DNA of 26,506 bases, from positions 1 through 26,506 of the forward strand of contig CADADE010000037.1 of the NCBI GenBank assembly GCA_902786615.1, in the 5' to 3' direction. This DNA is from Oscillospiraceae bacterium. Lineage in GTDB: Bacteria > Bacillota_A > Clostridia > Oscillospirales > Oscillospiraceae. Within the stretch, counting starts at the first letter, position 1, and each line of letters opens with the position of its first letter. The translations under genes and the position numbers were made by a program. Positions 1 to 26,455 of this stretch are shown piece by piece. The notes under the pieces were generated by a model. It was not told where the DNA came from, searched no databases, and saw nothing but the letters and a program-made list of their open reading frames with translations.

Positions 1-667
1 GCAGGAGGCGGCGGTGTTGTCGGTGGGGATGTAGAGCACGTCGCACTCGCCCACGGCGCTGGTCGTGACGGCGGCGACGTCGTTGGAGTCGGAGAACTCG
101 AAGTTCTTCACCGTGTAGCCGAAGGCCTCCAGCAGCGGGGTGATGGTCTCGACCTGGAAGCGGGAGTTGGCCTCGGCGTTGCAGTAGAGGATGCCCACGG
201 TCTTGGCGTCGGGGAAGAAGTCGTGCAGCATGGCGGCCTGCTCGTCGAGCGGCGCGAGATCGGAGGTGCCGGAGACGTTCTTCGCAACGCTGCGGCCTTC
301 CCACTCGTCGATCTCAAAGGCGGCGGCGTAGGCCGTGATCGAGGTGCCGAGGATGGGGATCTCGTTCGTGGCGCCGGCCGCGGCGATCAGCGCGGGCGTG
401 GCGTTGGCCATGATGAGGTCGACCTCGTCGGAGACGAACTGGCTTGCGATGACGGCGCAGCTCCAGCAGCTCGCTGAGCTTGTCGCAAAAGCCCTGGGTG
501 GCCAGGTCAAGCGCGGGGTGCTGCACCAGCTGGCAGACGCCGACGTTGAAGACCTTGTCGCTCTGCGCCGCGGCCGGCGCGGCGGAAGAGGCGGGTGCGC
601 TCTGGCCGCAGGCGGCAAGCGTGAAGAGCAGGCACAGCGCGCAGATAAGAGAAAGGATCTTTTTCAT
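1..667 (-). pseudogene. TrpX-like ABC importer substrate-binding lipoprotein, frame-broken and cut by the window edge
   Basis: The start is taken as the ATG at 667, eight bases after GGAGG (676-680); another ATG at 673 is too close to it. The product begins with a lipoprotein signal peptide (MKKILSLICALCLLFTLAAC) whose LAAC lipobox marks lipidation and anchoring outside the membrane. The next part, FNVGVCQLVQHPALDLATQGF, is typical of the PF04392 (ABC_sub_bind, TrpX/YtrI-type) family, which feeds amino-acid-type ABC importers. After LSELLE the frame goes out near 455-465. The family pattern resumes in another frame (SCAVIASQFVSDEVDLIM, then GTSITAY, FFPDAKTVGILYCNAEANS) and stays open to base 1. 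About 14 residues expected between the two halves are missing, so this looks like a deletion of roughly 40 bases rather than a single-base error. The permease and ATPase genes would lie beyond the left edge. An assembly error is the main alternative. Confidence 0.75.
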
Positions 668-701: not shown

Positions 702-733
702 AAAAAAGAGAGCCGCACAGTCATCTGTGCGGC
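702..733 (-). terminator. Attenuator terminator in the transporter leader
   Basis: On the minus strand the 9-bp stem GCCGCACAG/CTGTGCGGC (725-733 with 712-720) closes a four-base loop and is followed by TCTCTTTTTT (702-711). This is a strong intrinsic terminator placed after the leader peptide and about 35 bases before the lipoprotein start, the position expected of an attenuator. Confidence 0.85.
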
Positions 734-828
734 CCCTGTCAGCTTTCTTTGTGATCAGCGACGTTCCCTTTGCAGCACAAACAACCCCTATTTCCTGTTG
801 AAATAGCGGTAATAGCGGTATGCAAAAG
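712..828 (-). promoter_or_regulatory. Ribosome-mediated attenuator: alternative RNA pairings
   Basis: Three pairings compete in the minus-strand leader RNA. Segment 1 (821-828, CTTTTGCA), inside the leader ORF just before the Tyr codons, can pair with segment 2 (767-774, TGCAAAGG). Segment 2 extended (772-780, TTGTGCTGC) can instead pair with the 5' arm of the terminator (725-733, GCCGCACAG), with one mismatch and one G-U pair. A ribosome stalled at the Tyr codons would cover segment 1, free segment 2 and prevent the terminator. This matches the trp/his attenuator logic. The pairings are seen in the sequence; the mechanism is inferred. Confidence 0.7.
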
Positions 829-847
829 AAAAGCGAACGAGCTTCAT
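788..847 (-). CDS. 19-aa tyrosine-rich leader peptide (attenuation)
   Basis: The ATG at 847 follows GGAGGG (855-860) at seven bases and the frame ends in TAG at 788. The peptide reads MKLVRFSFAYRYYRYFNRK. Four of the six residues 10-15 are Tyr (codons TAC, TAT, TAC, TAT), interrupted by two Arg CGC codons and followed by Phe. A short ORF with a good ribosome site, a run of one amino acid, and a terminator downstream with an alternative pairing is the signature of a ribosome-stalling leader. The codon run suggests charged tRNA-Tyr as the signal, with Arg or Phe as weaker possibilities. It would control the TrpX-like importer gene downstream, which suits an aromatic amino-acid transporter. The ORF can be extended upstream to 970, but no ribosome site supports that, and it would start before the promoter. 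Confidence 0.75.
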   Translation of the reverse strand: MKLVRFSFAYRYYRYFNRK

Positions 848-875
848 CGCAAAACCCTCCGTGGAAGATGGCCCT

Positions 876-901
876 ACTTTAGCACTATGTGGTGCTAAAG
901 T
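876..901. promoter_or_regulatory. Perfect palindrome over the promoter, probable operator
   Basis: ACTTTAGCAC (876-885) and GTGCTAAAGT (892-901) form a perfect 10-bp inverted repeat with a 6-bp spacer. It fills the space between the -35 and -10 boxes and overlaps both. A dimeric repressor bound here would block RNA polymerase. The regulator is not identified. Confidence 0.55.
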
Positions 902-904
902 CAA
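876..904 (-). promoter_or_regulatory. Sigma-A-type promoter of the transporter operon
   Basis: Minus strand: -35 TTGACT (904-899), 17-bp spacer, -10 TAAAGT (881-876). Transcription would start near 869, about 20 bases before the leader-peptide ATG. Confidence 0.6.
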
Positions 905-12094: not shown

Positions 12095-12138
12095 GGAGCT
12101 GCTGACCAGATTCGAACTGGTGACCTCATCCTTACCAA
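12094..12138 (-). repeat. Left attachment site: 3' half of tRNA-Thr
   Basis: 45 bases repeat 26380-26424 with four differences. It holds the anticodon loop, the 3' anticodon strand, the variable loop, T-arm, 3' acceptor strand and CCA of tRNA-Thr, but no 5' half. The last 17 bases (12122-12138) are identical to the right copy and mark the crossover core. The T-stem here is ACCAG/CTGGT instead of GGCAG/CTGCC at the right. Confidence 0.9.
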
Positions 12139-12148
12139 TGTTTGTTCG

Positions 12149-12228
12149 TACCAACTAATACCAAGAAATCGAGGCGCTACAATGATTTCGGAGATTTTCA
12201 ATTAACAGGATGTACCAACCTGTACCAA
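12149..12228 (+). repeat. TACCAA direct repeats, probable integrase/excisionase arm sites
   Basis: TACCAA occurs at 12149, 12159, 12213 and 12223, and also at 12133 inside the att core. The four form two pairs, each with a 10-bp period, and the pairs are 64 bp apart. Phased repeats next to an att core are typical arm-type binding sites. The 188 bases from 12139 to 12326 hold no gene. Confidence 0.5.
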
Positions 12229-12326
12229 GTGAAAACAGGTCATACCATGCAAACAAGAGACGTTTTGTGTGCAAAATGTTTGCAGTATCTTTTCCCGGAA
12301 GGGTGTACGAAAATAGGCCGTTGGTT

Positions 12327-13196
12327 TTATCTCGCTGTGTTGTCGGTCGTGTTCGCCTCGCCCGACAGACTTGGAAGAGCTATCTCAAGAGCTTCAAGAC
12401 TGCTCAGTTGTTTGACCGCAAGTTCTCTCATCCTAACCAAGCGCTCAGACTGTGTCAAGCCTTGTTCAATCAAAATTGCATTATAACTTTCCATGTTTGC
12501 CAATACCAAAAGCTGCTGGATTGTGGAATAGTCGCGGATGTTCCCGGTTTTCTCGGGATTTTCGTCTCTCCACTGCCTTGCCGTCTTACCATACAACGCC
12601 ACATTGAGCATGTCCGCCTCACTGGCATATGTATAAGAGATTTGCTGCGGCGTCAGCTCTGGCGGGATCAGGTTATCTTTGATTGCATCGGTGTGGATTC
12701 GATAGTTCAGCTTTGCAATCTCCCTGTTTAGGTTCCATCCAAGTGAGAGCCTGCTGTTTTCATCATATTTAAGTCGCTTATAATCCTTGATGATGTATAG
12801 CTTGAACTCCGCAGACACCCATGAGGCAAATTCAAACGCAATGTCTGAGTGTGCATAGGTGCCGCCATATCGACCAGCTTTTACGACAATCCCGGTAGCA
12901 TTTACTCCTTCGATCCATTTTGTCGGGGACATGGTAAATGCATTCAATCCTGCTTGGCTTCTAAACCCGTCGAATTCGACGGGTTTAAATTTTGGATTGT
13001 GCAATGACTCCCAAAGGCCAAGAAATTCCAAAGTGTCGCGGTTTCGCATCCAGTTTTTGATGACATCATTCGGAGCGTCACTTTTGTACCGGGCAATGTC
13101 TGTCAAGGAAATATACTCGTTTTCGAAGTCTTCGGTATAGATTCCGATTTCAAAGCCTTTGGCGTGAATGGTGTCTTTTTTTATTTGTTTAGGCAT
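12327..13196 (-). CDS. KilA-N domain protein
   Basis: A 289-residue protein from the ATG at 13196 with GGAGGT five bases upstream. The N-terminal two thirds match the KilA-N DNA-binding domain. YISLTDIARYKSDAPNDVIK is followed by WMRNRDTLEFLGLWE and then GLNAFTMSPTKWIEGVNATG. After these come AGRYGGTYAHSDIAFEFASW and FKLYIIKDYKRLK. The C-terminal part is helical (LNREIAKLNYRIHTDAIKDN, then YASEADMLNVALYGKTARQW). KilA-N proteins are common in phages and mobile elements and often sit beside restriction systems. The exact role is unknown: DNA binding with a regulatory or defence-accessory function is likely. It is the last gene of the res-to-KilA-N operon, 21 bases after the DUF6602 gene. Confidence 0.8.
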   Translation of the reverse strand: MPKQIKKDTIHAKGFEIGIYTEDFENEYISLTDIARYKSDAPNDVIKNWMRNRDTLEFLGLWESLHNPKFKPVEFDGFRSQAGLNAFTMSPTKWIEGVNATGIVVKAGRYGGTYAHSDIAFEFASWVSAEFKLYIIKDYKRLKYDENSRLSLGWNLNREIAKLNYRIHTDAIKDNLIPPELTPQQISYTYASEADMLNVALYGKTARQWRDENPEKTGNIRDYSTIQQLLVLANMESYNAILIEQGLTQSERLVRMRELAVKQLSSLEALEIALPSLSGEANTTDNTAR

Positions 13197-13217
13197 ACAG
13201 CACCTCCAAATGAGCGT

Positions 13218-14258
13218 TCACTCTACCTCAGCATTTTCGTCTCTCTGGTCAGATATTCCGGCGTTATCATTCGATTCAAATGACCGATTAATAATCGTCG
13301 ACACCTTTTTAACTATTTCTTCTAACTCTTCTGCTGTTTTCCCATATTTTTTGAAATCTGCAGTTGTAAATTGCCCAGTTGTAAGCTTGAAGAAGATCTC
13401 ATGAGTTTCTCCTAAGAATCGGAGTTCTTCTCCGGACAAATTTGTATTTCCCACCGGAACTGACAAATCATCTGGTATCATATCATGTGGTATTGAGACT
13501 TTCATATCATCAAAAGTGTGAGCCGCAGATGCATATTGAAAAAGATTTGGCGGGAAATTGACCGCAGTGCTCAAATGCTGTTGTAGTAGTAGATAAAAAA
13601 GATAGAGATTATTCTCTTTCTCTTTTTCGATTATCCCCCAAGTTGTGTCCTCAGACGGCAATGTTGTGATATTACGCATGTCGTTTTTGCTGACATTAAC
13701 AATGAGGCCTTTATCCAGTACGCAAATCATACTTGGCAGATATTCCTTTGCAGCATCTTTACACAGGTCGTACACATTTTGAGCAATCGTAGATAATGAA
13801 CTATCAGATGTATAAGAAAAAATACTTCCACAGATTTTGTTGTATTGGTTGGGAATAACTGGTGAGTTTATAAAAACTGAAAGCTCTAATTCCTTTACGC
13901 TTCTAATATTGTCGATACTTTTTTCCAACTCTGCCTTTGATAGACATGATTTAACTTCGATTGTCGCAAATATGCTTTCTACGGGTAGAACAACACTTCC
14001 TGAATCCACTTGCAGAAATGATGGTGAATTGAATGCATCGTATATAATGAAGTCTTGTTGTTTACTTTGCGTTCCTTTAACGTCAGTTATAATTCCGCTC
14101 CCGACAGCGTATTTCTGAGGCAAGAGCTGCTTGATGTATTCACGGAGGATATTCTCCCTTGCGCTGCCGCGCAGGCCCATATGATCAATATGGCTGGTAA
14201 CTTCCTGATAATCGATCTCCATCTTTTTTGCCATGGACTCGATATTATAGAGGAGCAA
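13218..14258 (-). CDS. DUF6602-like protein with PD-(D/E)XK nuclease-type core
   Basis: A 346-residue protein. The start is a TTG at 14258, seven bases after GGAGG located in the last codons of mod. The nearest ATG (14234) has no ribosome site, so translation is probably coupled to mod. The N-terminal segment HMGLRGSARENILREYIKQL, then LPQKYAVGSGIITDVKG, QQDFIIYD and FATIEVKSCLSKAEL, looks like DUF6602. The Asp of IIYD and the Glu and Lys of IEVKS suit a PD-(D/E)XK fold. The remaining two thirds are mixed helical and strand without a known motif. It is AT-rich compared with mod. A nuclease-like or DNA-binding accessory in defence is the best guess; activity is not shown by sequence alone. Confidence 0.65.
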   Translation of the reverse strand: MLLYNIESMAKKMEIDYQEVTSHIDHMGLRGSARENILREYIKQLLPQKYAVGSGIITDVKGTQSKQQDFIIYDAFNSPSFLQVDSGSVVLPVESIFATIEVKSCLSKAELEKSIDNIRSVKELELSVFINSPVIPNQYNKICGSIFSYTSDSSLSTIAQNVYDLCKDAAKEYLPSMICVLDKGLIVNVSKNDMRNITTLPSEDTTWGIIEKEKENNLYLFYLLLQQHLSTAVNFPPNLFQYASAAHTFDDMKVSIPHDMIPDDLSVPVGNTNLSGEELRFLGETHEIFFKLTTGQFTTADFKKYGKTAEELEEIVKKVSTIINRSFESNDNAGISDQRDENAEVE

Positions 14259-14261
14259 ACC

Positions 14262-16118
14262 TTACACCTCCCACACGGTTTCATCCCCACAAATGTTCCG
14301 AATCTTCATTCGCAGTGGTTTATTTTCACTAGTGATCGTTCCGTCCCAGAAATCCTTGGTCTTGGCACCGTTGCGGATGACATAGCCGAGCTTGTCGATC
14401 TTGATCTCGCTGTCGGAGTGCCATTCGCCCGTGGCAGCGGTGCAGTCCAGGCTCAGGTACTCGATCAGCTCCAGGCCTTCGTCGCTGATCTCGATGGCTT
14501 TGAAGCCCTTCTTGCCGGCGTTGAGCAGAGCCTTTTCGTTATACTCGTGGATCTTGGTCATGACCCGGTCACTGAGAAACTTGTCCACCGTGACGCGCCA
14601 GCCGCCGAAGAGATCCTCGTGCATCTCATCGGTGTGCCACTCGGCATAGTCCCCGATGACCACATCGTCCAACACCGCTTTCAGATCCCGCAGCTCGATC
14701 TCCACCGTGGTACTGTCGTCCTCCCGGATGAAGCGCCGGATCTCGTCCTCGTTGGTAATGTCGATGTAATAGACAATGACCTTCTTCACATTGCCGTCCA
14801 GTTCCGGGATCGCCTGGTGGATGATGCGGTTCATGGTGACCTCATCCAGCAACTTGGAGGAAGAATCCATCAGGTTCGGCACATAGACCGGAACCATGCC
14901 CAGCTTGCTGTCAGAGATCGCACCCTCCCAGAAGGAGTCCAGAGAGTCCTCATTCTTTAGTCCGGGAATGAGGGCTTTAATCTTGTCCATGGTCTGCACC
15001 GGATTGCGGAAGAGCTGAACGCCGTCCTTAATCTCCAGCACGTCGAAGACCGCGCCGTCCGCTTTCAGCCGGTCACGGGTGGTCTGAATAGAATTGAGGC
15101 CGATATCGCAATGGATGAAGCGTCGCCCCAGCTTGGAGGCGACAGCCGCCGTCACACCGCTGCCGCCGAAGAAGTCGGCCACGAGCATATCAACATTGGA
15201 CGAAATGTTGATGATTCTATCTAGAAGAGCCTGCGGCTTCATGGTTGCATAGTCAATCTCCGCTCGTTCTTTTGCCATCGGGTTTACAAGTGGGATATCC
15301 AACCATGTATCATCTATTGCTTTGTCTGTTTGATCATAATATATTAGTTCGCCGTTCTCATCTTTCTTTTGAACGGCTTTCTTTTGTACAGGATCCCATA
15401 CTCTTGCCGTTTGCTTTCGCTGTTTATCGACAGCAATACGGATTTTATTGAAAGTGTACTCTTCTGAATTTGTATAAAACAAAAGAGTATCATGATTCAT
15501 TGGAAGACCGGAAGATTTCCCAGCAAACTTATTATAATGCCATACTATTTCATTTTTGAATTGATCCTCGCCAAAGATCTCATCCATCAGGATCTTAACA
15601 TAGTGGACAACATGCCAATCCAAATGCACATAAATCGACGCTGTCTCACTCATGACACTCTTGATTGCCATGAGATTTTCATACATCCAGTTGAGATATT
15701 TCTCCTTATCCCAGACGTCGCCGTACATCTTTTCTTCAAAGGCTTTGAGTTCGTCAATGTCAAGCTCCTGCTCGGCCTGGGCGATGGCCCCTGCAACCTT
15801 CGGATTGCGGCGGATATAAACCTGCTTGGCATAGTCGGCCCCGCTGGCAAAGGGCGGGTCGATATAGACCAGATCGACCTGGACACCCTGCTCTTTGAGA
15901 TAGGCGCAGGCGGAGACACACTCGCCTCGGATAACCAGGTTGCCGTCGGTATTGTCGCCCACGGTCTCCTGCTTCTCCATCTCATACAGGGGCATGCCCC
16001 GCTGCAAGACCGTGGAAACATTATCTGCGCCCTTGTATTTCAGTATCCGGTTGAAGTTCCCCAGCACCGCCTGTCCCTCGACTGGCTCCGGGATAAAAGG
16101 TATGTATTTAATCGGCAT
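14262..16118 (-). CDS. mod: Type III restriction-modification DNA methyltransferase (Mod)
   Basis: A 618-residue protein from the ATG at 16118, nine bases after GGAGG, overlapping the upstream gene by 11 bases. The catalytic motif DPPF (residues 87-90, in VYIDPPFASG) precedes the S-adenosylmethionine motif FFGGSG (316-321). That is the beta-class order of type III Mod enzymes, which methylate adenine N6. The usual length is 600-700. The target recognition domain should lie between the motifs (about 150-300). The DNA for that part (about 15200-15680) is visibly AT-rich compared with both flanks, so the specificity domain may have been exchanged. The C-terminal part (from TMDKIKALIPGLKNEDSLDS) is the usual Mod tail for binding Res. 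Mod protects host DNA and provides the specificity of the whole complex. Confidence 0.9.
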   Translation of the reverse strand: MPIKYIPFIPEPVEGQAVLGNFNRILKYKGADNVSTVLQRGMPLYEMEKQETVGDNTDGNLVIRGECVSACAYLKEQGVQVDLVYIDPPFASGADYAKQVYIRRNPKVAGAIAQAEQELDIDELKAFEEKMYGDVWDKEKYLNWMYENLMAIKSVMSETASIYVHLDWHVVHYVKILMDEIFGEDQFKNEIVWHYNKFAGKSSGLPMNHDTLLFYTNSEEYTFNKIRIAVDKQRKQTARVWDPVQKKAVQKKDENGELIYYDQTDKAIDDTWLDIPLVNPMAKERAEIDYATMKPQALLDRIINISSNVDMLVADFFGGSGVTAAVASKLGRRFIHCDIGLNSIQTTRDRLKADGAVFDVLEIKDGVQLFRNPVQTMDKIKALIPGLKNEDSLDSFWEGAISDSKLGMVPVYVPNLMDSSSKLLDEVTMNRIIHQAIPELDGNVKKVIVYYIDITNEDEIRRFIREDDSTTVEIELRDLKAVLDDVVIGDYAEWHTDEMHEDLFGGWRVTVDKFLSDRVMTKIHEYNEKALLNAGKKGFKAIEISDEGLELIEYLSLDCTAATGEWHSDSEIKIDKLGYVIRNGAKTKDFWDGTITSENKPLRMKIRNICGDETVWEV

Positions 16119-16941
16119 TGGATGTTTCCTCCGCTTTCAAAGTAATCAATAGACGCATGATGTTGCCAGTCTGATACATGAGATACTCAAGAACTTTTTG
16201 CTCAGTTTTGTCATGATGCTTTGCATAGGCATTCATAAAATTAGTGTATGCAAGCAGTAGAGTTTCCAGATTGTTGCTGATCTCTGCCGGGACACCTTGT
16301 GCTTTCAGATAACGACCATACTCCGCCTTGTTGTTCTCGAGGGTTTTGTCATTGCCAAAGAATTCTTTGAAAAAGGTTTCGAGAGCCTTTCTGAACTTGT
16401 CTGCGATATCGCTTGCTTTGTCGGGTTTACACTCAGCATAGTCTCGGAGAGCTTTGCTCCACCCCTTTTCGGTGTTCGGGTAAGCAATAAGCCACTGCAA
16501 AGGTGCTGATACTAAAGCTGAATCAAACTCCTCAACCCCTTTAGGGAAGATATACTTTCCGTCCTCATCGTCAAATATTTCAAATTGAATTTTCAATTCT
16601 TTCATTGCCGTACAAAGGAAAGAAAACAAATCTTCATTAGGAGTATTTTTCCGCAAACGATTATAGCAATTACAAAATTCAATGTATATTGAAATCAGGT
16701 CTATTTCGTCTTTAGTATTATCAAGGAGTTCACGAACTTCTAACAATTCCTCGTAAAAATCTTCATCTATTCGCTCTCCTATAGACGTCATAAACATCAT
16801 TAAATCATTATATGTATATTCAAATCTTGATGAACGATTTAAGAAGTCAATAAAATTAGTAAGCTTGTTTTTTAAGGCTTCAAATCTTTGCTTATCATTA
16901 AACCCAATCCCCAATTTCTCCCTGTAGTCAATCCACTTCAT
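16108..16941 (-). CDS. Unknown helical protein inside the type III RM operon, possible degenerate HEPN/Abi_C
   Basis: A 277-residue, AT-rich gene between res and mod. It overlaps res by 14 bases and mod by 11, so it is surely co-expressed. I do not recognise a family with certainty. The protein is predicted to be mostly alpha-helical. Near the C-terminus, YTNFMNAYAKHHDKTEQKVL followed by EYLMYQTGNIMRLLITLK resembles the RN-x-x-x-x-H helix of HEPN/Abi_C abortive-infection proteins. The Arg is replaced by Met, so an RNase activity is doubtful. It could be a Mod-Res coupling subunit, a regulator, or an abortive-infection effector. Base composition differs clearly from res and mod, which suggests a separate origin. 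Confidence 0.55.
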   Translation of the reverse strand: MKWIDYREKLGIGFNDKQRFEALKNKLTNFIDFLNRSSRFEYTYNDLMMFMTSIGERIDEDFYEELLEVRELLDNTKDEIDLISIYIEFCNCYNRLRKNTPNEDLFSFLCTAMKELKIQFEIFDDEDGKYIFPKGVEEFDSALVSAPLQWLIAYPNTEKGWSKALRDYAECKPDKASDIADKFRKALETFFKEFFGNDKTLENNKAEYGRYLKAQGVPAEISNNLETLLLAYTNFMNAYAKHHDKTEQKVLEYLMYQTGNIMRLLITLKAEETSNAD

Positions 16942-19834
16942 CTATTTGCCCTCCAAAAAACTCGTTTATCTTCTCCTGCGCTTTCACAATCCGCTCATGC
17001 TCCGGCAATGTATCCTCCAGATACAGATACTCAAATCGTGCATAACCGAACGCCTTGTTATTCTGCCGCAGGAACTCCGTCTCTGTGAAGCGGCGCTTGT
17101 CCTTGAAAGTAGGATCGTTGGCATAGATTTCTCCCTTGGTCTCCACGATGATCGCCTTGTGGATCTTGCCGTCTTTGCGCTGCAGGATCAGGAAGTCCGG
17201 CGTGTAGATACCGATATACAGCCACCGGCTGCCGCTTTGCTTGTAGCACTTGATCCTGAACTCAGTCATTGACCCGTCGCCGTTATAATACACTTCCAGG
17301 CCAAGCTGTTCGAGCTGCGTAAAGGCCAGCACCTCACCCAGAAATACCTGCTCAAAACCGCTGTCGGTATGATAGGGCAGATAATGAAAACTGCGGTCTT
17401 TCTGTGGATGAGCACTGTTTTGCTTGCGCAGGGTGTCGGCAATCGCACGGTTGGCCGCGCTGGCGTCTGCTTCCAGTGCTGCAATTGCAGCGGCAATCTC
17501 CGGCTTCATTTTCAGCTTGCCCTGATCATCCAGAACGATATTCTCAACCGTTTTTTGGTCAGGATAGAAGTCCTTCGGCTTTTCGGTGTACAGCGTTTCG
17601 TGCTTGGCTGTCATGGTCAGAAGGCTTGCTTCCTGAGGTATTACTTCTTCTGACGTCCGGAAGCTGCGTTTCTCAGCAAAAGCCTTACGGATATTCGCCT
17701 CTACGATCGCACGGGTATAACGGGAACTAAAAGTTCGGCTTCCGTCTTTTTCATAGGTGATGGTATCAAACACGCGGCGCAGCAGTTCGCGGTACGGTTT
17801 CATCTCCATCATCGAAAGCGTACCGAAACTGCCCTTGACGATTCCGTACAGCCAGGCGTCGAAGCTGGCATATTCCGTGCCGCGCTCGGCAGTGTCTTCC
17901 TCGATGCCTGTTGTCTTCATGCTGAAGTCCGTTGTGTAGATAATGGCGCTGTCGGTTTTTGCGCCGTCTGCAGCCGCGGGAATATATTTCTCCGGCGCGA
18001 GTTCTTCTGTCTGCTCTTCCGTGTAGCGGACGGCCAGCTGATAGAAGTCGATCTTCGGCAGCTTCAGGTGATCCATACGGTTATAACGGTTGATCAGTGT
18101 TTTGCTGTGATCAGCCGCGGCAAACTCTTTCAGGGAAATGTGCTGTGTTTGCTGCAGCTCTTCGTTGAGCATCTCCGCGTTGCTGTCGTTGAGATAGATC
18201 AGCGCGGTTTCCGGAGCGCCTTTCACGACCTGACGCAGACAGCGGCAAGAGGTCTGCAGCACCATATTCTTCGGGCAGTCGCCCTCCTGGGAGAGAACAA
18301 TGCCTGTCAGGCTGTGGCAGTCCCAGCCTTCCTTGCCGATTTGGACGAGGAGGACGATCCGCTTTTGGGAAATCGCCTTGTCCAGAATATCAAACTCCAT
18401 CTGGCTGTCGGCCGGGGCTTTGTATTTCTTCGCATTGGGATCTTTGCTGCTGGATTCCCGATAGAAGCGCAGAATACTGTCCTCGTTCAAGCCATATTCT
18501 CTGGCAACGCGCAGAACAAGCGGATATACGATCTCTTCGAGCTTGGGAATGGTTCCGCAGTAGATGGCCAATTTCGCCGTTGTTCCGTCCGGGTAGACCG
18601 TATCCTGATAGGCATCCAGAAATGCACGCACACCGTTCTCAATGATACGCTCGGTACTTGCGTGGGCCTCAATTTTGACCACGGGGCGCTTGAGAAAATT
18701 GCCAACACCTTCGATTAGCGGGTAGTAGTAGACGATATTGGTGATCTCCGCTGTAGCAACGGACAGGCCCTTCACTACGTCCACTTTCTCTGCCTTCTCC
18801 AGATAAGGCGTGCCGGAGAAGCCGATGACAGAGTTGACTGTTCTCCCGGCTGCCCAACGGTTGACCACGGCGCGGAGCTTGATCTCATCGCTGACGGCGT
18901 GATGTACCTCATCAATGAAAATGGCAAGGGAGGGCAGTTTGCCAATGAGATTACGCAGCTCGTTGGCCTGGCGATCGGCTTCATCCGCGCTGTCCTCAAA
19001 GAGACTGACCTGGCCCTTCTTCTCTTGAATGCGGTCAAGAATGACCTTCTCGGCATTGGTGACTGCCACAAGCCCGAACAGCTCGTCCAGCGGCTGGTGA
19101 TTGGCGATCTTTTGTACATTGGGGTTTTTCGTTTTGTTGGACTTGCTGGCTGTCTTGCGCTGATCCAACACCTCAAAGATGAGTTGGCGCTTTATATCCG
19201 AAGCGGCAGGTTCCGGCAACACCCAGGCCGGATCAAAGTTCTGGATGGTACGCAGACTCGGCACCACGGATGACTTCAGGCCAGAAGGAGCGAAGATGAT
19301 GAAGTTGTGCGCAAAGGCTGGGTTTTGCGGCTCGTTGGAGGCAAAGTACAGATCGAGATAGATAAACGCCGCCATAAGGTAAGTCTTACCTGCGCCCATG
19401 GGAAGGCTAAACAGATAATCGGAGTACGAGACGCCGTAGAAGGCAGAGGTGAAAAACTGCTCATAATCAATACTGGCCGGATCTTTGGCAATCTGATCCT
19501 GCAGCTTTTTGGAAACCTGTTCGCCGCTGTCATTGGTTTGGCTTGCGTATTCATAGAGCGCAGCTGCGGCGGGATTCCGGCGCAGAAAGTCCTTTACGCT
19601 GTCCGGCAGGGAGAGTTCCCCAATGTCCAGAGAATTAAAGGTTCCGGCCGAAAACAGCTCATACAGTGGTTTGCAATCGCATGCTACTTTCAGAAACAGG
19701 TAGGTCTTGATGGCATCCACTTGTGCGTCACGCATCTGCCCGGCCTTGCTGATATAGTCCACCAGAGCCCGCACGGAGCAATCGTCCGACGCGAACCACT
19801 GATCTCTTTTTCGTTCGATCATTTTATAAAACAC
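16928..19834 (-). CDS. res: Type III restriction endonuclease subunit (Res)
   Basis: A 968-residue protein. The start is a GTG at 19834 behind GAGGGGG; the in-frame ATG at 19822 is 20 bases away from it. Superfamily 2 helicase motifs occur in order: Walker A PMGAGKT (145-151), DEVHH for motif II, SGTP for motif III and QTSCRCLRQ for motif VI. Near the C-terminus TPDFLIL and IIVETKGE (about 878-900) give the PD-x(n)-ExK nuclease centre. Res translocates or slides on DNA using ATP and cuts about 25-27 bp from Mod sites in the Res-Mod complex. Here res is first and mod third, the reverse of the common mod-res order, with an unknown gene between. A weak promoter may lie in 19835-19910, but no clear boxes were found. 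Confidence 0.88.
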   Translation of the reverse strand: MFYKMIERKRDQWFASDDCSVRALVDYISKAGQMRDAQVDAIKTYLFLKVACDCKPLYELFSAGTFNSLDIGELSLPDSVKDFLRRNPAAAALYEYASQTNDSGEQVSKKLQDQIAKDPASIDYEQFFTSAFYGVSYSDYLFSLPMGAGKTYLMAAFIYLDLYFASNEPQNPAFAHNFIIFAPSGLKSSVVPSLRTIQNFDPAWVLPEPAASDIKRQLIFEVLDQRKTASKSNKTKNPNVQKIANHQPLDELFGLVAVTNAEKVILDRIQEKKGQVSLFEDSADEADRQANELRNLIGKLPSLAIFIDEVHHAVSDEIKLRAVVNRWAAGRTVNSVIGFSGTPYLEKAEKVDVVKGLSVATAEITNIVYYYPLIEGVGNFLKRPVVKIEAHASTERIIENGVRAFLDAYQDTVYPDGTTAKLAIYCGTIPKLEEIVYPLVLRVAREYGLNEDSILRFYRESSSKDPNAKKYKAPADSQMEFDILDKAISQKRIVLLVQIGKEGWDCHSLTGIVLSQEGDCPKNMVLQTSCRCLRQVVKGAPETALIYLNDSNAEMLNEELQQTQHISLKEFAAADHSKTLINRYNRMDHLKLPKIDFYQLAVRYTEEQTEELAPEKYIPAAADGAKTDSAIIYTTDFSMKTTGIEEDTAERGTEYASFDAWLYGIVKGSFGTLSMMEMKPYRELLRRVFDTITYEKDGSRTFSSRYTRAIVEANIRKAFAEKRSFRTSEEVIPQEASLLTMTAKHETLYTEKPKDFYPDQKTVENIVLDDQGKLKMKPEIAAAIAALEADASAANRAIADTLRKQNSAHPQKDRSFHYLPYHTDSGFEQVFLGEVLAFTQLEQLGLEVYYNGDGSMTEFRIKCYKQSGSRWLYIGIYTPDFLILQRKDGKIHKAIIVETKGEIYANDPTFKDKRRFTETEFLRQNNKAFGYARFEYLYLEDTLPEHERIVKAQEKINEFFGGQIDEVD

Positions 19835-20009
19835 GGGATAGGCCCCCTCGTTTCATGCTATTTTTATTTTCTCATATTTCCCAGCTTTTTTCAACTCTTC
19901 AACCCCTGATGCCCACTTAGTTGATGCCTAAGAGCATTTAGTCTTCCAAGTAATCTTTTTCTGGAGAGTTCTCGTACGGTCCCTTTCTATCCTTTGAATA
20001 ATATTTTTC

Positions 20010-20050
20010 AAAAAGACGGTCTGCTCTAACATGGAGCAAGCCGTCTTTTT
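20010..20050 (-). terminator. Terminator after the SprT-like gene
   Basis: AAAAAGACGG (20010-20019) pairs with CCGTCTTTTT (20041-20050), extended by CTGCTC/GAGCAA. On the minus strand the T-rich 3' arm is followed by GAAAAATATT. It separates the SprT-like gene from the res operon. Confidence 0.8.
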
Positions 20051-20053
20051 GCT

Positions 20054-20701
20054 TTACACATATTTCATTTGTTTCCCGCAGTCCATACACATGAGACGCA
20101 GGCCGTCTCGCGTAGCCCGGACGGATGCCCCGCAGCATGGGCATTGGAGCTTGCGGCTGTTGCCTTTTGGAGAAGTCCCGGCCGTGCCGGTTACCGCTGG
20201 CCCCCTGCCACCCAGGCCGGTGGCCTGCCAGCCCTCCAGTCTGGACATCTTGATTTCTCCCCATCCCTGCTCAAGGATAAATTCAATCAAGCCGTCCCCC
20301 GGTTCTGTCACGCTCCAGCCTACCCGAGGATCATAGGAAAGGATGAGGTCACGCGCCTCGGCCTCCGCTTTGAATCGCTTGTTGTGGTACTGCCCGGCTC
20401 GGCTGCAATCCTGAACGCCCTGCTGGATGTTCCATAGGTGCACCATTTCATGCTGCATGGTCGCCACGACGTTTTCGATAGGACGGTCAAGCGTGCCCGC
20501 GCCGATGTTGAGCTCGTGGCGCGTCTCGCCGTCCTCCCGCGCCCAAGACTTCGCCACCGTCACATGGCCGTAGGCTTTGGGCGTGCTTTGAATCGTGATG
20601 ACCGGTTCCTCGAGCCGCCCGCCGTAGTAATGTTCGTTGAGTGCTCTGAATATTTTTTCGAGATACCCGGCTGTGCGGCTGGTTTTGACTGTCTGCTTCA
20701 T
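20054..20701 (-). CDS. SprT-like zinc metalloprotein
   Basis: A 215-residue protein from the ATG at 20701, with GGAGG ten bases upstream. The early motif HYYGGRLEEPVITIQSTP and the HExxH centre in MQHEMVHLWNI, with the later RAGQYHNKRFKAEAEA, are typical of the SprT-like domain. The two His and the Glu would hold zinc. The C-terminus has a zinc ribbon, CPCC at the start and CMDC at the end, as in several bacterial SprT-like proteins. In eukaryotes SprT/Spartan proteases degrade DNA-protein crosslinks; the bacterial role is little known. In an element with an HUH protein that links covalently to DNA, removal of the covalent Rep adduct is a tempting but unproven role. Confidence 0.85.
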   Translation of the reverse strand: MKQTVKTSRTAGYLEKIFRALNEHYYGGRLEEPVITIQSTPKAYGHVTVAKSWAREDGETRHELNIGAGTLDRPIENVVATMQHEMVHLWNIQQGVQDCSRAGQYHNKRFKAEAEARDLILSYDPRVGWSVTEPGDGLIEFILEQGWGEIKMSRLEGWQATGLGGRGPAVTGTAGTSPKGNSRKLQCPCCGASVRATRDGLRLMCMDCGKQMKYV

Positions 20702-20771
20702 GTCGATCGTTCCTCCTATAATTTGATAATGCGCAGCGCGCTTGCGCTTGCGCGTCTCTGGTTACAGAGGC

Positions 20772-20871
20772 AATCGAAAAGAAAGCCAGCGTCAAGGGGA
20801 TCATGGAATAAATCAGTTCACAAACTGTTTTATGCCGTGAAAGCCCCTTTACGCTGGCTTTTCGTTCGATT
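20772..20871. repeat. Long imperfect palindrome (about 100 bp), candidate single-strand origin or structured RNA
   Basis: The arms 20772-20799 and 20844-20871 are complementary at 24 of 28 positions (core AAAGCCAGCGT). Nested inside, 20802-20818 and 20823-20839 form a second stem of 17 positions with two mismatches and a four-base loop (CACA). The whole folds into one long hairpin. It lies in the 248-base gap between the SprT-like and XRE genes, which holds no ORF of its own. Confidence 0.7.
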
Positions 20872-20877
20872 AGCAGC

Positions 20878-20911
20878 CCAGGCTGGGATCGCTAACACGA
20901 TTCCAGCCTGG
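20878..20911. repeat. Second hairpin, 14-bp stem
   Basis: CCAGGCTGGGATCG (20878-20891) pairs with CGATTCCAGCCTGG (20898-20911), one G-T pair, loop CTAACA. There is no T run on the minus strand that would make it a terminator of the XRE gene. It directly adjoins the long palindrome. Confidence 0.65.
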
Positions 20912-20949
20912 TGGTTTAGGAGTTTTTGTTCGTTGCCTGTAAACAGTGT

Positions 20950-21576
20950 TTAGCCGTCAATCTCATTAAAGTCGCCGAAAAGAGTGTCCTCTTCACAATC
21001 TGAGCGGTAAAAGGTTTCACCATAGAAGGAGTGGAAGGTGTCAGCGTTAAATAGCTCTATATCTATCGGTTTTTTTGATTTTGATAATTCTTCTTGCTTC
21101 CGGCTCAAATACCTAATTCTAATCTCATCAGCCGAAGCTGGGTAGCGGTCAGGCTCAAAACTCCGGGCAGCTTCATATTTGTCCCCATAATCTACTACAT
21201 CACATAAGATGCTTTTGATATTTGAGTCAGGAAATACCAAATCACCACTACTTGTAATATTTCCACCAGTTTGTTTTAGCAAAATCATGATCAGTTTAAG
21301 ACACTCTCCCGCATTGAGTTTTTCTATGTCCTGTGCGTATTCTGTTCTGCCGCACAGATCGTCAAGTGAAACATTTAATGCATCTGCGATTGCTACAGCA
21401 GAAGTCAAAGATGGCACTCTTCCCTCCTTACTACTATTATATCGGTCTGTGTTGACTCCACTTAGGGTTTTAAGTTTGTTCCTTGTTATTCCCTTCGTCT
21501 GTAATAACTCATCCAATTTTTTAGAAAAAACGCTTCGTACCCTATCCTCGCGGACCTGTTTTTTTGATCGATTCAT
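20950..21576 (-). CDS. XRE/Cro-family repressor of the element
   Basis: A 208-residue protein. The start is the ATG at 21576, eight bases after GGAGG; the GTG at 21585 overlaps that ribosome site. Residues about 14-70 are a Cro/C1-type helix-turn-helix: KKLDELLQTKGITRNKLKTL, then SGVNTDRYNSSKEGRVPSLT and AVAIADALNVSLDDLCGR. The C-terminal part (about 80-208) is of unknown fold, without a Ser-Lys autocleavage motif I can see. It is divergent from the replication/transfer operon, and its promoter is bracketed by TGACAG sites also present at the opposite promoter. It is probably the master repressor that keeps the element quiet and regulates itself. Confidence 0.82.
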   Translation of the reverse strand: MNRSKKQVREDRVRSVFSKKLDELLQTKGITRNKLKTLSGVNTDRYNSSKEGRVPSLTSAVAIADALNVSLDDLCGRTEYAQDIEKLNAGECLKLIMILLKQTGGNITSSGDLVFPDSNIKSILCDVVDYGDKYEAARSFEPDRYPASADEIRIRYLSRKQEELSKSKKPIDIELFNADTFHSFYGETFYRSDCEEDTLFGDFNEIDG

Positions 21577-21689
21577 TTTTTGCACCTCCGAAGAAACTGC
21601 TATCTGTCAGTAGATTCTTGAAAAGTTCGGTTTTTACTGCTAATTCGCAGTGTCTCATTGTCCTACCATGCCACACTGCACCAAAATTC

Positions 21690-21729
21690 TGACAGAAGTA
21701 TAATACCAAAAAAGCATTACTTCTGTCAA
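21690..21729 (-). promoter_or_regulatory. XRE promoter bracketed by an 11-bp inverted repeat
   Basis: TGACAGAAGTA (21690-21700) and TACTTCTGTCA (21718-21728) are perfect arms 17 bp apart. On the minus strand the same bases form -35 TTGACA (21729-21724) and -10 TATTAT (21705-21700), 18 bp apart. Each operator half thus overlaps one promoter box, which fits autorepression. A further CTGTCA is at 21604-21609. Confidence 0.65.
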
Positions 21730-21760
21730 GTAGCTGAAGAAAATGTAGTTATCCCGCTTT

Positions 21761-21790
21761 TTGACAGATACACATAAGGCGTAGTACATT
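21761..21790 (+). promoter_or_regulatory. Promoter of the replication/transfer operon
   Basis: -35 TTGACA (21761-21766), 18-bp spacer, -10 TACATT (21785-21790). The -35 box is part of TTGACAGATA, sharing TGACAG with the operators of the divergent XRE promoter. Confidence 0.55.
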
Positions 21791-21820
21791 ATACTCACCC
21801 AAAGGAAAGGAGGTATGTCG

Positions 21821-22069
21821 ATGACTTTGATTGGTTATGCCCGCAGCGATTTCCACGTCAAGGACACTGACACAACCGTGACTGGCTACAACATCTACAT
21901 TGCCCAGCCCATCGCCCCTGAGCGTGGCCGTGGCAAGAGCGTAGAGCGTTACTACATCACCGATGCTAAGCTCGCAGCTTGTGGAGTTGACCTTGCCAGT
22001 GCATACGGCAAGGACGTGCACGTCTATTTTAATCGCTACGGCAAGATCGACAGTCTGGCCTTGGCCTAA
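21821..22069 (+). CDS. Small conserved-type protein, possible ssDNA-binding accessory of Rep
   Basis: An 82-residue protein. The start is set at the ATG at 21821, seven bases after AGGAGG; the ATG at 21815 is next to the ribosome site and too close. The sequence suggests a small beta-barrel: GYNIYIAQPIAPERGRGKS, then YYITDAKLAACGVDL and YGKDVHVYFNRYGKIDSLAL. It has basic and aromatic residues that could bind nucleic acid. Size, strand pattern and position directly before a rolling-circle Rep recall the gene-V-type ssDNA-binding proteins of filamentous phages, but there is no clear sequence identity. It is the first gene of the rep-ftsK-xis operon. Confidence 0.6.
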   Translation: MTLIGYARSDFHVKDTDTTVTGYNIYIAQPIAPERGRGKSVERYYITDAKLAACGVDLASAYGKDVHVYFNRYGKIDSLALA

Positions 22070-22085
22070 GGCTTGACCTGACTGG

Positions 22086-22115
22086 CGGGGTGGGAGTTCT
22101 AAAACTCCCACCCCG
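22086..22115. repeat. Perfect 13-bp hairpin before rep: candidate double-strand origin or oriT
   Basis: CGGGGTGGGAGTT (22086-22098) and AACTCCCACCCCG (22103-22115) with the loop CTAA. No T run follows on the plus strand (TGAAAAAAG), so it is not a standard terminator for the operon. HUH Rep proteins often nick in or beside such hairpins close to their own gene. Attenuation of rep expression is the alternative. Confidence 0.55.
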
Positions 22116-22165
22116 TGAAAAAAGCAAATGACTTGACAATGTAACAACTTAGTGGAGGTTTCGAT

Positions 22166-23212
22166 ATGGAATGCAAAATCCCAAACAACTGCTATCTTCA
22201 GCCCAAGGAAGTCGTAGTAGGAGATACCACGATGAGTGTTCTACAATGCGTACCCAATATGGATAGCGGAGTAATCAGCGTGAAACGTTTAGGCGGCATG
22301 ACGCAACTTACCTTGATGAAATCCAAGCTCGCAGAGGGCGTCAACACCCACGACATCCACGAATTCAACGTTATGAGCGGGGCTATACCGCCTGATGAAG
22401 AAACTGTTGAGGAGCGCCATGATGAATCTCAGCGAGTTTCTATTGTACGCGCAATCACGGCTATACGAGAATTGGTTGCCTGCAATGAATGGCGAGCCTT
22501 TGTCACGATTACACTTAGCCCGGAGAAGTGGAAAGACCGCTGCAATCCGGAATCGCTCCAATCGACGATAAAGAACCTTGCGATGAAATGGAAGCGAATG
22601 CAGCGCGACAAGACACGTCCCTACAAGGATTTTAAGTATCTCTTGATTCCCGAGCTGCACAAAAATGGAGCTGTTCACCTTCACGGCTTTGTCAACCTCA
22701 TTCCCCGTGAGTATTACATCCGTTACACAGAGGCGGACATAATGTCTGATCAGCCCCTTCCACAATACATCTGCGACGCCGTAAAGGCCGGACGGGAAAT
22801 AGCTCACTGCACGGCATGGGACGAATTGTTTGGCTACAACGTGATTGAGCCGATACAAGACCTGGATCGCGCCGCGAACTACGCGACCAAATATGTCACC
22901 AAAGACTTAGGCAAAACACCCTTCGCATGTCGCTATTGGTGCTCACGAGGCCTACAACGTGGGGCGACTGTTGGGGCGTTCCAGTGTCCGGTCGATCAAT
23001 CTGCCATCGCAGAATATGAGAACCTGATTACTCCTCATGCGGTGGTAACGCCAGCGGGAAAAACGATACACATGATATACCATAGACCGCCGCAGAGTCC
23101 AGAGGACAAAGATACCTTTGCCGGTATCAAAACGACGATTGACAAAGATTCCCTGTCAACCGAAGATACACTATCGCTACTGGATCAGCACTACCCTCGA
23201 TTTACTGGATAA
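22166..23212 (+). CDS. HUH-family replication initiator/relaxase
   Basis: A 348-residue protein from the ATG at 22166, seven bases after GGAGG. The HUH motif is seen as HLHGF (His171-Leu-His173), preceded by the conserved strand FVTITLSPEKW. The tyrosine motif is NYATKYVTK with Tyr239 and Tyr243. The YxxxY spacing is that of two-tyrosine (Y2) initiators, but Y-x-x-K also fits one-tyrosine plasmid Reps. The protein would nick one DNA strand at the element origin, stay linked to the 5' end and start rolling-circle replication or transfer. With FtsK-like, Xis and Int genes after it, it should act on the excised circle. It is separate from helicase-containing relaxases; no helicase domain is present. 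Confidence 0.8.
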   Translation: MECKIPNNCYLQPKEVVVGDTTMSVLQCVPNMDSGVISVKRLGGMTQLTLMKSKLAEGVNTHDIHEFNVMSGAIPPDEETVEERHDESQRVSIVRAITAIRELVACNEWRAFVTITLSPEKWKDRCNPESLQSTIKNLAMKWKRMQRDKTRPYKDFKYLLIPELHKNGAVHLHGFVNLIPREYYIRYTEADIMSDQPLPQYICDAVKAGREIAHCTAWDELFGYNVIEPIQDLDRAANYATKYVTKDLGKTPFACRYWCSRGLQRGATVGAFQCPVDQSAIAEYENLITPHAVVTPAGKTIHMIYHRPPQSPEDKDTFAGIKTTIDKDSLSTEDTLSLLDQHYPRFTG

Positions 23213-23304
23213 GGAACAAAACTATCAGAGTGCTGGTAGTGGAGATATAAAGAAGTTGAAAATCAATAATCAATTCTTCCACCACGAAAGGACGGGTGAT
23301 TTAC

Positions 23305-24576
23305 ATGGAAGAAAAGCAAAATCTCAATTTTGAGACTCGCCGGAGGTATATCCTCCACACGATCAAGCACGGTATCAGCGCCGTGGTCGACACGAAGGCC
23401 GCGAAGCTCAAGATGCTTGTGATCGTGCTGGCTTGGCACGGCATTTGCATGCTTTGGGCATGCGCATCTCCTGATTTAGTGCAGGGGCTGCTTCGCACCA
23501 GTCAATACTTGCTCACGCCTCTGGTAATCCTGGCTGCGCTTTATTGGGCTGGATATGTACCGGGGAGTTGGGAGATGTACCGCAACCTTTTGCGAATTGG
23601 GCTGGTCAACAGCGCAGGGGAAGCACCGTACCTGATCAGTCGGCGCGAGGTTGACGGGCAGACGGAGTACATATTCCAAAGCCGGGGTGTAACGAAAACG
23701 CGTTGGAAAGAATGCCTGGAGGAGATCGAGTCCGCGCTGAACCTGACGATCGGCAACATACAGCAATCAATAGACTTTCGCACGTTAACCGTTCGTGCCG
23801 TCCCGCCCAACATGGTTTTTGGCGAGACGATCATGTGGGACTCCGCCCTGATCAACTATGATGATGACACCGATTTCATCTTAGGGAAGACCGCAGCCGG
23901 GGAAATTGTCCATTGGAACTGTGAGACTATGCCTCATGTCCTGGTCGGCGGTGCCACCTCTTCGGGCAAGACACGGCTCTCCATGTTGATTCTCGAGCAA
24001 GCCTTGTTTCGCGGTGCCCAGGTCTTCATTGTTGATCTCAAAGGCTTAGACTATCGCCCGCTTGAGAAAATGGATGCTCAACTGGTGACCGATATGCAAA
24101 GCGCGGTCTCCCTTCTGAGCGAGACCGTTGATACGATGTACGCACGGCGTGATTTGCTGCGAAAAGCAGAGGCAGCAAATTTCCAAGCGTATAACCGAAT
24201 TGTCGGTCACAAACTGCATCGCATCTTTATCCTTATTGACGAGTGCAGTATGTTGACCAACTCCGGCACCAGCAAGGAAGCCAAGGCTACTTCTCAGGAG
24301 TGCATCGACAAGATGACTACTCTTGTTCGCCTCGGGCGCGCCGTGGGAATCCATCTTCTGATCGCTACCCAGGTGCCCGATGTTTCAAGTGTGCCGACTG
24401 CCATTCGCTCAAATCTCGACATGCGAATCTGCGGCAAGGCCGACAGTATTCTCTCTACGATGGTGCTGGGAGACGGCAGGGCAGATGAGCTGATCCCCAA
24501 GGACGCGCGCGGTCGCTTTGTCGTGGCAAACGGTGCTGAGTCCGTAGTCTTTCAGGCATTTTATTACGCTACGTGA
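23305..24576 (+). CDS. FtsK/SpoIIIE-type DNA translocase / coupling protein
   Basis: A 423-residue protein. The start is set at the ATG at 23305, with AAAGGA 12 bases upstream; a GTG at 23296 is possible. Two N-terminal transmembrane helices (around 30-50 and 65-85) are followed by a cytosolic region and the ATPase. Walker A is GGATSSGKT (215-223), Walker B ILIDE (Asp312, Glu313), and a later RNA-less FtsK segment reads ATQVPDVSSVPTAIRSNLDM. The plan matches TcpA/Tn916 Orf21 coupling proteins and, in role, the TraB translocases of actinobacterial AICEs. It would pump or hand over the element DNA through the membrane during conjugation. No gamma domain for sequence reading is visible. Confidence 0.85.
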   Translation: MEEKQNLNFETRRRYILHTIKHGISAVVDTKAAKLKMLVIVLAWHGICMLWACASPDLVQGLLRTSQYLLTPLVILAALYWAGYVPGSWEMYRNLLRIGLVNSAGEAPYLISRREVDGQTEYIFQSRGVTKTRWKECLEEIESALNLTIGNIQQSIDFRTLTVRAVPPNMVFGETIMWDSALINYDDDTDFILGKTAAGEIVHWNCETMPHVLVGGATSSGKTRLSMLILEQALFRGAQVFIVDLKGLDYRPLEKMDAQLVTDMQSAVSLLSETVDTMYARRDLLRKAEAANFQAYNRIVGHKLHRIFILIDECSMLTNSGTSKEAKATSQECIDKMTTLVRLGRAVGIHLLIATQVPDVSSVPTAIRSNLDMRICGKADSILSTMVLGDGRADELIPKDARGRFVVANGAESVVFQAFYYAT

Positions 24577-24592
24577 GAAAGGAGAGAGCAAA

Positions 24593-24790
24593 ATGGAAAT
24601 CTATATTACACTTGACGATGTGCCTTTGATGCTCACAGTTGAGGAGATGGCACAGCTGCTTCGCATCAGTCGTAATACCGCATACAAATATGCTAAGAGC
24701 GGCCGGATCAAGTCAATTACCATTTGCAAGCAGATTCGGATTCCCAAAAGCGAACTGCTGGAAATGATGGCCGGTCAGACACATAAATAG
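24593..24790 (+). CDS. xis: Excisionase-type helix-turn-helix protein (Xis)
   Basis: A 65-residue protein, with AAAGGAGA eight bases before the ATG at 24593 and 16 bases after the ftsK-like stop. The sequence LTVEEMAQLLRISRNTAYKY followed by AKSGRIKSI and IRIPKSELLEMM is a winged MerR-like excisionase helix-turn-helix (HTH_17). The position directly before int is the usual one. It should bind and bend the arm DNA and switch the integrase to excision. Confidence 0.88.
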   Translation: MEIYITLDDVPLMLTVEEMAQLLRISRNTAYKYAKSGRIKSITICKQIRIPKSELLEMMAGQTHK

Positions 24791-24896
24791 AACTTGCAAA
24801 CAAAGCTGCCCTCCTGTAGACTACACATGACGAATGAACACTGCTTGTGATGTCTTCAGGGGGGATTTCAATTACATCATCACAAGGAGAATAACC

Positions 24897-26261: not shown

Positions 26262-26274
26262 ACATAGTTCACAC

Positions 26275-26293
26275 TGTTTGCAACGTGTTTGCA
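26275..26293 (+). repeat. TGTTTGCA pair, possible right-arm integrase sites
   Basis: TGTTTGCA occurs at 26275-26282 and 26286-26293, 11 bp apart, between int and attR, and once more near the left end at 12277-12284. The position suits arm sites, but the unit is short. Confidence 0.35.
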
Positions 26294-26342
26294 AATCAGC
26301 GTCCTAAGTCCGATTTCAAAAATAAAGCTGCTTAGAAAATGC

Positions 26343-26374
26343 AAAAAATCCCCGAAATCTTTCGATTTCGAGGA
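26343..26374 (-). terminator. Element-borne terminator for tRNA-Thr
   Basis: On the minus strand TCCTCGAAATC (26374-26364) pairs with GATTTCGGGGA (26359-26349), one G-U pair, followed by six T (26348-26343). It lies inside the element and replaces the terminator lost to the tRNA by integration. Confidence 0.85.
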
Positions 26375-26379
26375 CTTTC

Positions 26380-26455
<76 letters not shown>

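Follow-up and report, generated by a model that had tools for sequence, protein, structure and literature searches.

The DNA analysed here (the window, meaning the whole stretch of 26,506 nucleotides from an Oscillospiraceae bacterium) carries, in front of the gene for a TrpX-like binding protein, a short leader that is probably a classical ribosome-mediated transcription attenuator sensing charged tRNA-Tyr. Its basis in the sequence is observed directly: a leader open reading frame (ORF), alternative pairings, conservation, covariation, and an association with particular genes. The element appears to be of a known kind, classical attenuation, with a putative regulon of both uptake and synthesis genes. 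If this is true, tyrosine joins the amino acids that are sensed by leader-peptide attenuators, in a host class for which a T-box would be the expected sensor, and with the same kind of leader on uptake and synthesis genes. The parts of the leader and the gene behind it are as follows.

876..904, minus strand: sigma-70-type promoter TTGACT-17-TAAAGT, read directly, upstream of the Shine-Dalgarno sequence and the leader ORF
901-892 and 885-876, minus strand: 10-bp dyad ACTTTAGCAC-N6-GTGCTAAAGT, overlapping the -35 and -10 elements
855..860, minus strand: Shine-Dalgarno sequence GGAGGG of the leader ORF, read directly
788..847, minus strand: leader ORF MKLVRFSFAYRYYRYFNRK, 19 codons from ATG (847-845) to UAG (790-788), read directly
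820-818, 814-812, 811-809 and 805-803, minus strand: the Tyr codons within MKLVRFSFAYRYYRYFNRK
800..830, minus strand: segment 1, with an outer arm (830-821), a middle part (817-815 and 810-808) and an inner arm (806-800); a predicted fold, with similar folds in homologues
765..794, minus strand: segment 2, with an inner part (794-788, holding the stop codon), an antiterminator part (786-772) and an outer part (774-765); supported by folding and covariation
719..733, minus strand: segment 3, partner of either 786-772 (antiterminator) or segment 4 (terminator); 2:3 covariation in 60 loci
735-725 and 720-710, minus strand: predicted 11-bp hairpin of an intrinsic terminator, followed directly by UCUUUUUU, with a U-rich tail at 709-702
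1..667, minus strand: TrpX-like binding-protein gene, lacking 47 nt near 462 relative to locus L001 and therefore shifted in frame; it runs off the window

The first-pass annotation of this DNA had reported a 19-codon ORF with a ribosome site and Tyr codons, and all of its parts could be located: the ATG, the UAG, the GGAGGG sequence and four Tyr codons. A hallmark of attenuators, a short ORF behind a ribosome site in which the codon for the regulated amino acid occurs several times, is present, as is an intrinsic terminator between that ORF and the binding-protein gene. From 960 to 670, the window differs from its nearest genome (G001, locus L001) solely by T for C at 783, a change that keeps a G-U pair. 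Phage records searched with the leader gave no match.

Three pairings compete in the leader, and those of the complete 1:2 / 2:3 / 3:4 attenuator described in the first-pass annotation are correct, although an inner hairpin had been overlooked and two of the helices are longer than proposed. The protector (1:2) consists of an outer helix, 830-821 : 774-765, which extends the suggested lock of 767-774 by 821-828, followed by short middle helices and the overlooked inner helix, 806-800 : 794-788, which takes in the last Tyr codon together with the stop codon. The antiterminator (2:3) had been given as the capture of 725-733 by 772-780 and reaches from 786-772 to 733-719, with 14 of its 15 positions paired and a single mismatch at 774:731 (the paired view is taken from L031, a locus nearly identical to the window). 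The leader folds better than its dinucleotide shuffles (z -3.78), one in 200 of which is as good.

In computed position-dependent folds, 2:3 forms before segment 4 is made, whichever of the four Tyr codons occupies the A site of the ribosome. A ribosome that has reached the stop codon covers segment 2, and 3:4 forms; RNA free of ribosomes folds into 1:2 and 3:4 side by side. The terminator is the more stable structure at equilibrium even when the ribosome is stalled (-21.3 kcal/mol for 3:4 versus -18.9 kcal/mol for the 2:3 duplex), and the switch must therefore be kinetic. In the model proposed here, a shortage of Tyr-tRNA would stall the ribosome at the Tyr codons in segment 1 and so block 1:2. 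Segment 2, left free, would pair with the newly transcribed segment 3, 3:4 would not form, and the importer operon would be transcribed. If tyrosine were plentiful, the ribosome would reach the stop codon inside segment 2 and hide that segment, and 3:4 would terminate transcription; if there were no ribosome, 1:2 would form and 3:4 would again terminate. What we infer is that the leader is translated, that ribosomes stall on it, that transcription terminates or reads through, and that tyrosine is taken up.

The alignment of homologous upstream regions, which had been proposed beforehand as a check, bears out this arrangement: the Tyr codons are conserved, the pairings recur, and both 2:3 and the inner helix of 1:2 covary. 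A search of 101 genomes of the genus with the intact L001 binding protein gave a match in 74 genomes, at 75 places, and 73 importer loci had usable upstream DNA (G003 and G028 were dropped for lack of it). An ORF preceded by a Shine-Dalgarno sequence and containing at least three Tyr within 12 residues is found at 58 of these 73 homologous loci, which are related, so that the counts are not independent. The same test scored 0/73 on the reverse strand and 3/365 on dinucleotide shuffles. Homologues without Tyr codons or pairings had been named as a possible refutation; most loci keep both, but 15 of the 73 fall short of the Tyr threshold. These include three Phe-rich leaders with one or two Tyr (L095, L096 and L098, in G106, G110 and G019), leaders with two Tyr (G048 and G051), a Tyr-rich ORF lacking a recognised Shine-Dalgarno sequence (L093), and loci where no leader was found (for example L050, L055, L085, L088, L090 and L091); L042, which is cut by a contig edge, was scored as a miss. 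The leaders of L086, L087 and L093 are of a divergent type (MASRRFSYYYYRYFSTVS, MKRNTVSLHYYYRYYYDSSVYCR), with other pairing sequences and the same downstream gene.

The leader peptides of the genus range from MTGRRIAYAYSYYSYYRFR to MFRHFFAVAYYYYYYFFKKSNKSLCCN, and the residues between the conserved Tyr vary among homologues. This variation bears on a different reading, in which it is the growing peptide chain that halts the ribosome when free tyrosine or a drug is present. Arrest leader peptides exist, as in TnaC and the antibiotic leader peptides, and the peptide in question is similarly short and contains basic and aromatic residues. However, the sequences differ widely except in their Tyr, Phe and basic residues, which is ill suited to a specific arrest, and induction by free tyrosine would have the wrong sign for an importer. 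Such a mechanism is extremely improbable.

Covariation of the antiterminator was assessed in 60 loci chosen for a segment 2 core, a segment 3 core and a U-run. The 13 loci without this pattern were excluded, among them five that have a Tyr-rich ORF (L060, L061, L086, L087 and L093). At five flanking positions of 2:3, 238 of 300 cells are paired; when the segments were re-paired between species, the mean was 183 (sd 6.2), with a maximum of 207 in 2000 shuffles. Compensating changes can be seen in GAAGU versus ACUUC, GCGGU versus ACUGC, and GUCGU versus AUGAC. The leader thus has an antiterminator that excludes the terminator and that covaries. A mismatch at one position of 2:3, 774:731 in window numbering, is shared by all 60 loci, with U or C facing C or U; it may be held in place by the competing pairings 1:2 and 3:4.

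For the protector, 80.2% of cells are paired, compared to 75.5% after shuffling (58 distinct rows), 75 cells are changed on both sides (33.8 in shuffles), and the covariation score is 0.297 (0.220 in shuffles); none of 500 shuffles reaches any of these values. The number of pairs with two-sided change (12 versus 10.6; reached by 118/500) and of further pair types (36 versus 34.9; reached by 203/500) is not above that of shuffles. A protector hairpin over the control codons is nonetheless present, strong in its inner helix (9 of 10 pairs with two-sided change, 88.8% of cells paired) and weaker in its outer helix (3 of 10 pairs, 71.9% of cells), in figures that come from a structure derived from the same sequences, with a loosely aligned outer arm, and that kinship tends to inflate. 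Alignment A1 omits L031, L042 and L071, alignment A2 omits L031 and L042, and the terminators of homologues come from an alignment of 58 sequences selected for having one. Conserved in most homologues and covarying, the leader is more than a product of chance.

The inner helix, in which CUAUUAC faces GUAAUAG, raises the question of whether the Tyr codons are kept merely since UAUUAC must pair with GUAAUAG, with no sensing of tyrosine by translation. The helix is conserved, and 103 of the 222 Tyr codons in importer leaders lie within it. The remaining 119 lie outside it (some perhaps in the outer helix), and therefore this helix alone does not explain the Tyr codons; just 2 of 53 leaders have no Tyr codon outside. 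The reading frame and the Shine-Dalgarno sequence are also kept, and the associated genes are aromatic. It is thus very unlikely that pairing accounts for the Tyr codons by itself, and a translated, Tyr-sensing leader is the favoured reading.

The importer behind the leader is predicted to be a three-gene ABC importer, with a binding protein, a permease and an ATPase, that takes up tyrosine. In G001, a permease gene (PF02653) and then an ABC ATPase gene lie downstream of the binding-protein gene. The searches for protein families and related structures used the intact L001 homologue, not the frameshifted copy in the window, where the 47-nt gap may be a real deletion or an assembly error. The L001 protein belongs to PF04392 and scores 216.7 bits against the TrpX tryptophan-binding model NF041285, well under the cutoff of 390 bits. 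Its closest solved relative is CD0873 of Clostridioides difficile (6HNI), a tyrosine-binding protein in which the hydroxyl group of tyrosine is contacted by Glu263, while Tyr279 keeps tryptophan out (PMC6816091). At the aligned positions, E257 and Y273 of the L001 protein, 72 of 75 homologues have Glu and Tyr, and the other three are truncated there; the copy in the window ends at the window edge, before the equivalent positions. These CD0873-type residues support the tyrosine substrate suggested in the first-pass annotation for the TrpX-like importer, and would supply a predicted substrate for a generically annotated importer of mostly uncultured gut and rumen bacteria. Since they are also kept at leaderless loci, they do not test the leader. 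The words "T-box" and "operon" are absent from the main text of the CD0873 paper (PMC6816091). In keeping with the proposed reading, about 1.7 kb downstream of the importer, G001 has genes for the alpha and beta subunits of indolepyruvate ferredoxin oxidoreductase (L373, 3583-5915); at that place, G032 has ORFs with near-identical starts, with an alpha ORF of only 340 codons.

The dyad in the promoter is probably the operator of a dedicated regulator, to judge from its position and distribution. An exact match to CTTTARC-N10-GYTAAAG occurs once per genome in 19 of 61 genomes of the genus, every one at the importer promoter, while a control pattern is present in 8 of the 61. The dyad was also compared with the CIRCE element of HrcA and rejected as such; the half-sites are similar but the spacing is different. 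At the leaderless loci L085, L088 and L090-L092, the dyad is retained and lies upstream of a canonical promoter.

The element is not confined to the importer. In other Clostridia, it also precedes the gene for DAHP synthase (aroF). A covariance model built on importer leaders (R1) was run on 101 genomes of the genus, 245 of the order and 291 of the class. In the genus, 72 of 101 genomes have a match and 37 matches lie away from the importer, not counting four on the opposite strand over importer leaders. Of 36 such second sites examined (G035:C202, with an E value of 0.004, was left out), 35 precede a gene with DAHP synthase motifs; the other, at the end of a contig, resembles the importer leaders. 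At the thresholds used, matches occur in only 30 of 245 genomes of the order and 19 of 291 of the class, G001 included in both. Outside G001, DAHP synthase follows at 25 of the 29 sites examined in the order (of 32; three matches without a locus were left out) and at 16 of the 19 sites in the class. The 41 DAHP synthase loci from order and class span 19 families. All three proteins tested for DAHP synthase identity (TIGR01361 / NF006421) scored above the curated cutoff, and the other loci were assigned by sequence motifs. DAHP synthase is the first enzyme of aromatic amino-acid synthesis.

A leader ORF could be recognised at 75 of the 76 DAHP synthase loci, with at least three Tyr in 74. A separate aroF set, which may share genomes with the genus, order and class sets, has a Tyr-rich leader in 58 of the best 80 of 588 public loci, including Angelakisella massiliensis (L285) and Aminicella lysinilytica (L296); the reverse strand gave 1/80, and random windows of the same loci, some of which can overlap the leader, 17/240. 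The support for 2:3 is weaker in aroF leaders than in importer leaders: in 60 of them, the complementarity of segments 2 and 3 has a mean z of 1.9, exceeds 2 in 33, and is matched by 204 of 1200 shuffles. RNAalifold, applied to an alignment (A3) of 51 of the 60 DAHP synthase leaders, gave no consensus pair, and the resulting sequence-only model (R2) was not used; alignment A5 was set aside because it included fragments from the opposite strand.

A point against the proposed reading is that in the close clade of the window, aroF lacks a Tyr leader ORF in the six genomes inspected (G001, G138, G117, G026, G125 and G050). The first four have a short hairpin right behind the promoter, G125 has a degraded hairpin and G050 another one. 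An aroF search at threshold found none in G032, G018 and G115 and a truncated match in G005. At L347, L348, L350 and L351, a bare terminator-like hairpin upstream of aroF resembles the remnant of a lost attenuator, and the hairpin of L349 is degraded.

Leader composition bears on which amino acid is sensed. In 55 importer leaders picked by position (L042 and L099 were removed), there are on average 4.25 Tyr, 2.8 Phe and 2.6 Arg, with at least three Tyr in 50, three Phe in 31 and three Arg in 31, and Arg is absent from just one. Arg is frequent enough there that composition does not exclude it as the signal. It was rejected because the stretch from the first to the last Tyr contains no Arg in 25 of the 55 leaders, aroF leaders are low in Arg (0.7-1.3 on average), and the genes are aromatic. 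Phenylalanine is a stronger candidate, not in place of tyrosine but alongside it: the same attenuator could be a general aromatic sensor that responds to both. Phe is the second commonest residue of the importer leaders, predominates over the one or two Tyr in the leaders of G106, G110 and G019, and in aroF leaders is at least as common as Tyr (3.8 versus 3.7 in the genus, 5.0 versus 4.0 in the order, and 4.75 versus 4.7 in the class). In the window, however, two of the three Phe codons (6 and 8, the third being 16) precede the Tyr cluster, and the Tyr-type Glu is present in all 73 importer proteins that are readable at that position. Even G106, G110 and G019 keep Tyr-type residues in their binding proteins. 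A joint signal is rather unlikely, and tyrosine by itself is the more probable signal.

Amino-acid leader-peptide attenuators are classically those of the trp, his, leu and phe operons of Proteobacteria. The present element is like these in its leader ORF with tandem codons for the amino acid of the pathway, its alternative pairings and its intrinsic terminator, and differs in its putative tyrosine signal, its clostridial host, its targets (a Tyr-type ABC importer and DAHP synthase) and the absence of a match to an Rfam family. Actinobacteria have trp and ilv leader-peptide attenuators (PMC1262725). Until the 2010 survey that described His leaders of hisZ/hisS* in Bacilli, leader peptides of this kind were, by its own account, known just from these two phyla (PMC2965389). 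A leucine-rich attenuator precedes the ilv operon of Staphylococcus aureus (PMC5794164). Both are cases of leader attenuation in Firmicutes, as proposed here, with a different amino acid, different genes and a different class. The view that a ribosome-stalling Tyr leader is unusual in Firmicutes, where T-box or TRAP control is the norm, thus holds as regards that norm, but leader attenuation as such has precedents there. A search of literature, mostly without subscription papers, found no description of Tyr leaders in Clostridia.

Other comparisons concern the same targets. The uORFC-13-1 motif upstream of aroF comprises 24 sequences from Acholeplasma and the environment (PMC8632094). Compared by its description only, it shares an upstream ORF with one or more Phe codons and a terminator before DAHP synthase, whereas the leaders described here have both Tyr and Phe codons, occur in Clostridia, and have the importer as a second target. 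In Streptococcus suis, trpXYZ is under a Trp T-box (PMC9382623). The ABC importer is of a related type and attenuation again responds to an aromatic amino acid, but the sensor is a T-box in that case and a putative Tyr leader peptide in this one.

T-boxes also control some Tyr genes of other Firmicutes (PMC2494555), and a T-box or TRAP-type element would be the usual regulator of genes such as these. T-box matches occur in 41 of 41 genomes of the genus searched, over the cut-off in 36, and a shortage of T-boxes therefore does not account for the leader peptide. Rfam, including the T-box family RF00230, gave no match at gathering scores for the window leader and 15 leader or aroF loci. By eye, the part of the leader that lies upstream of the terminator has just two (G/U)AG triplets. 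The probability of a T-box or TRAP-type element here is close to negligible, and the leader peptide stands as the proposed sensor.

A broader history can be sketched tentatively, at somewhat less than an even chance. Gut and rumen Clostridia may have a tyrosine (aromatic) regulon under ribosome-mediated attenuation, in which an old Tyr/Phe leader of DAHP synthase, spread across many families, gave rise in one genus to a copy in front of a tyrosine ABC importer. Its later loss from DAHP synthase in the clade of the window would have shifted control from synthesis to uptake, with T-boxes kept elsewhere in the same genomes. Such a leader family would be a natural place to follow attenuators as they pass from gene to gene or disappear.

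Elsewhere in the window, the region from about 12100 to 26455 looks like an integrated element, with the following features.

14262-19834: DNA methylase and ResIII-type protein
24834-26261: phage-type integrase
26383-26455, minus strand: tRNA
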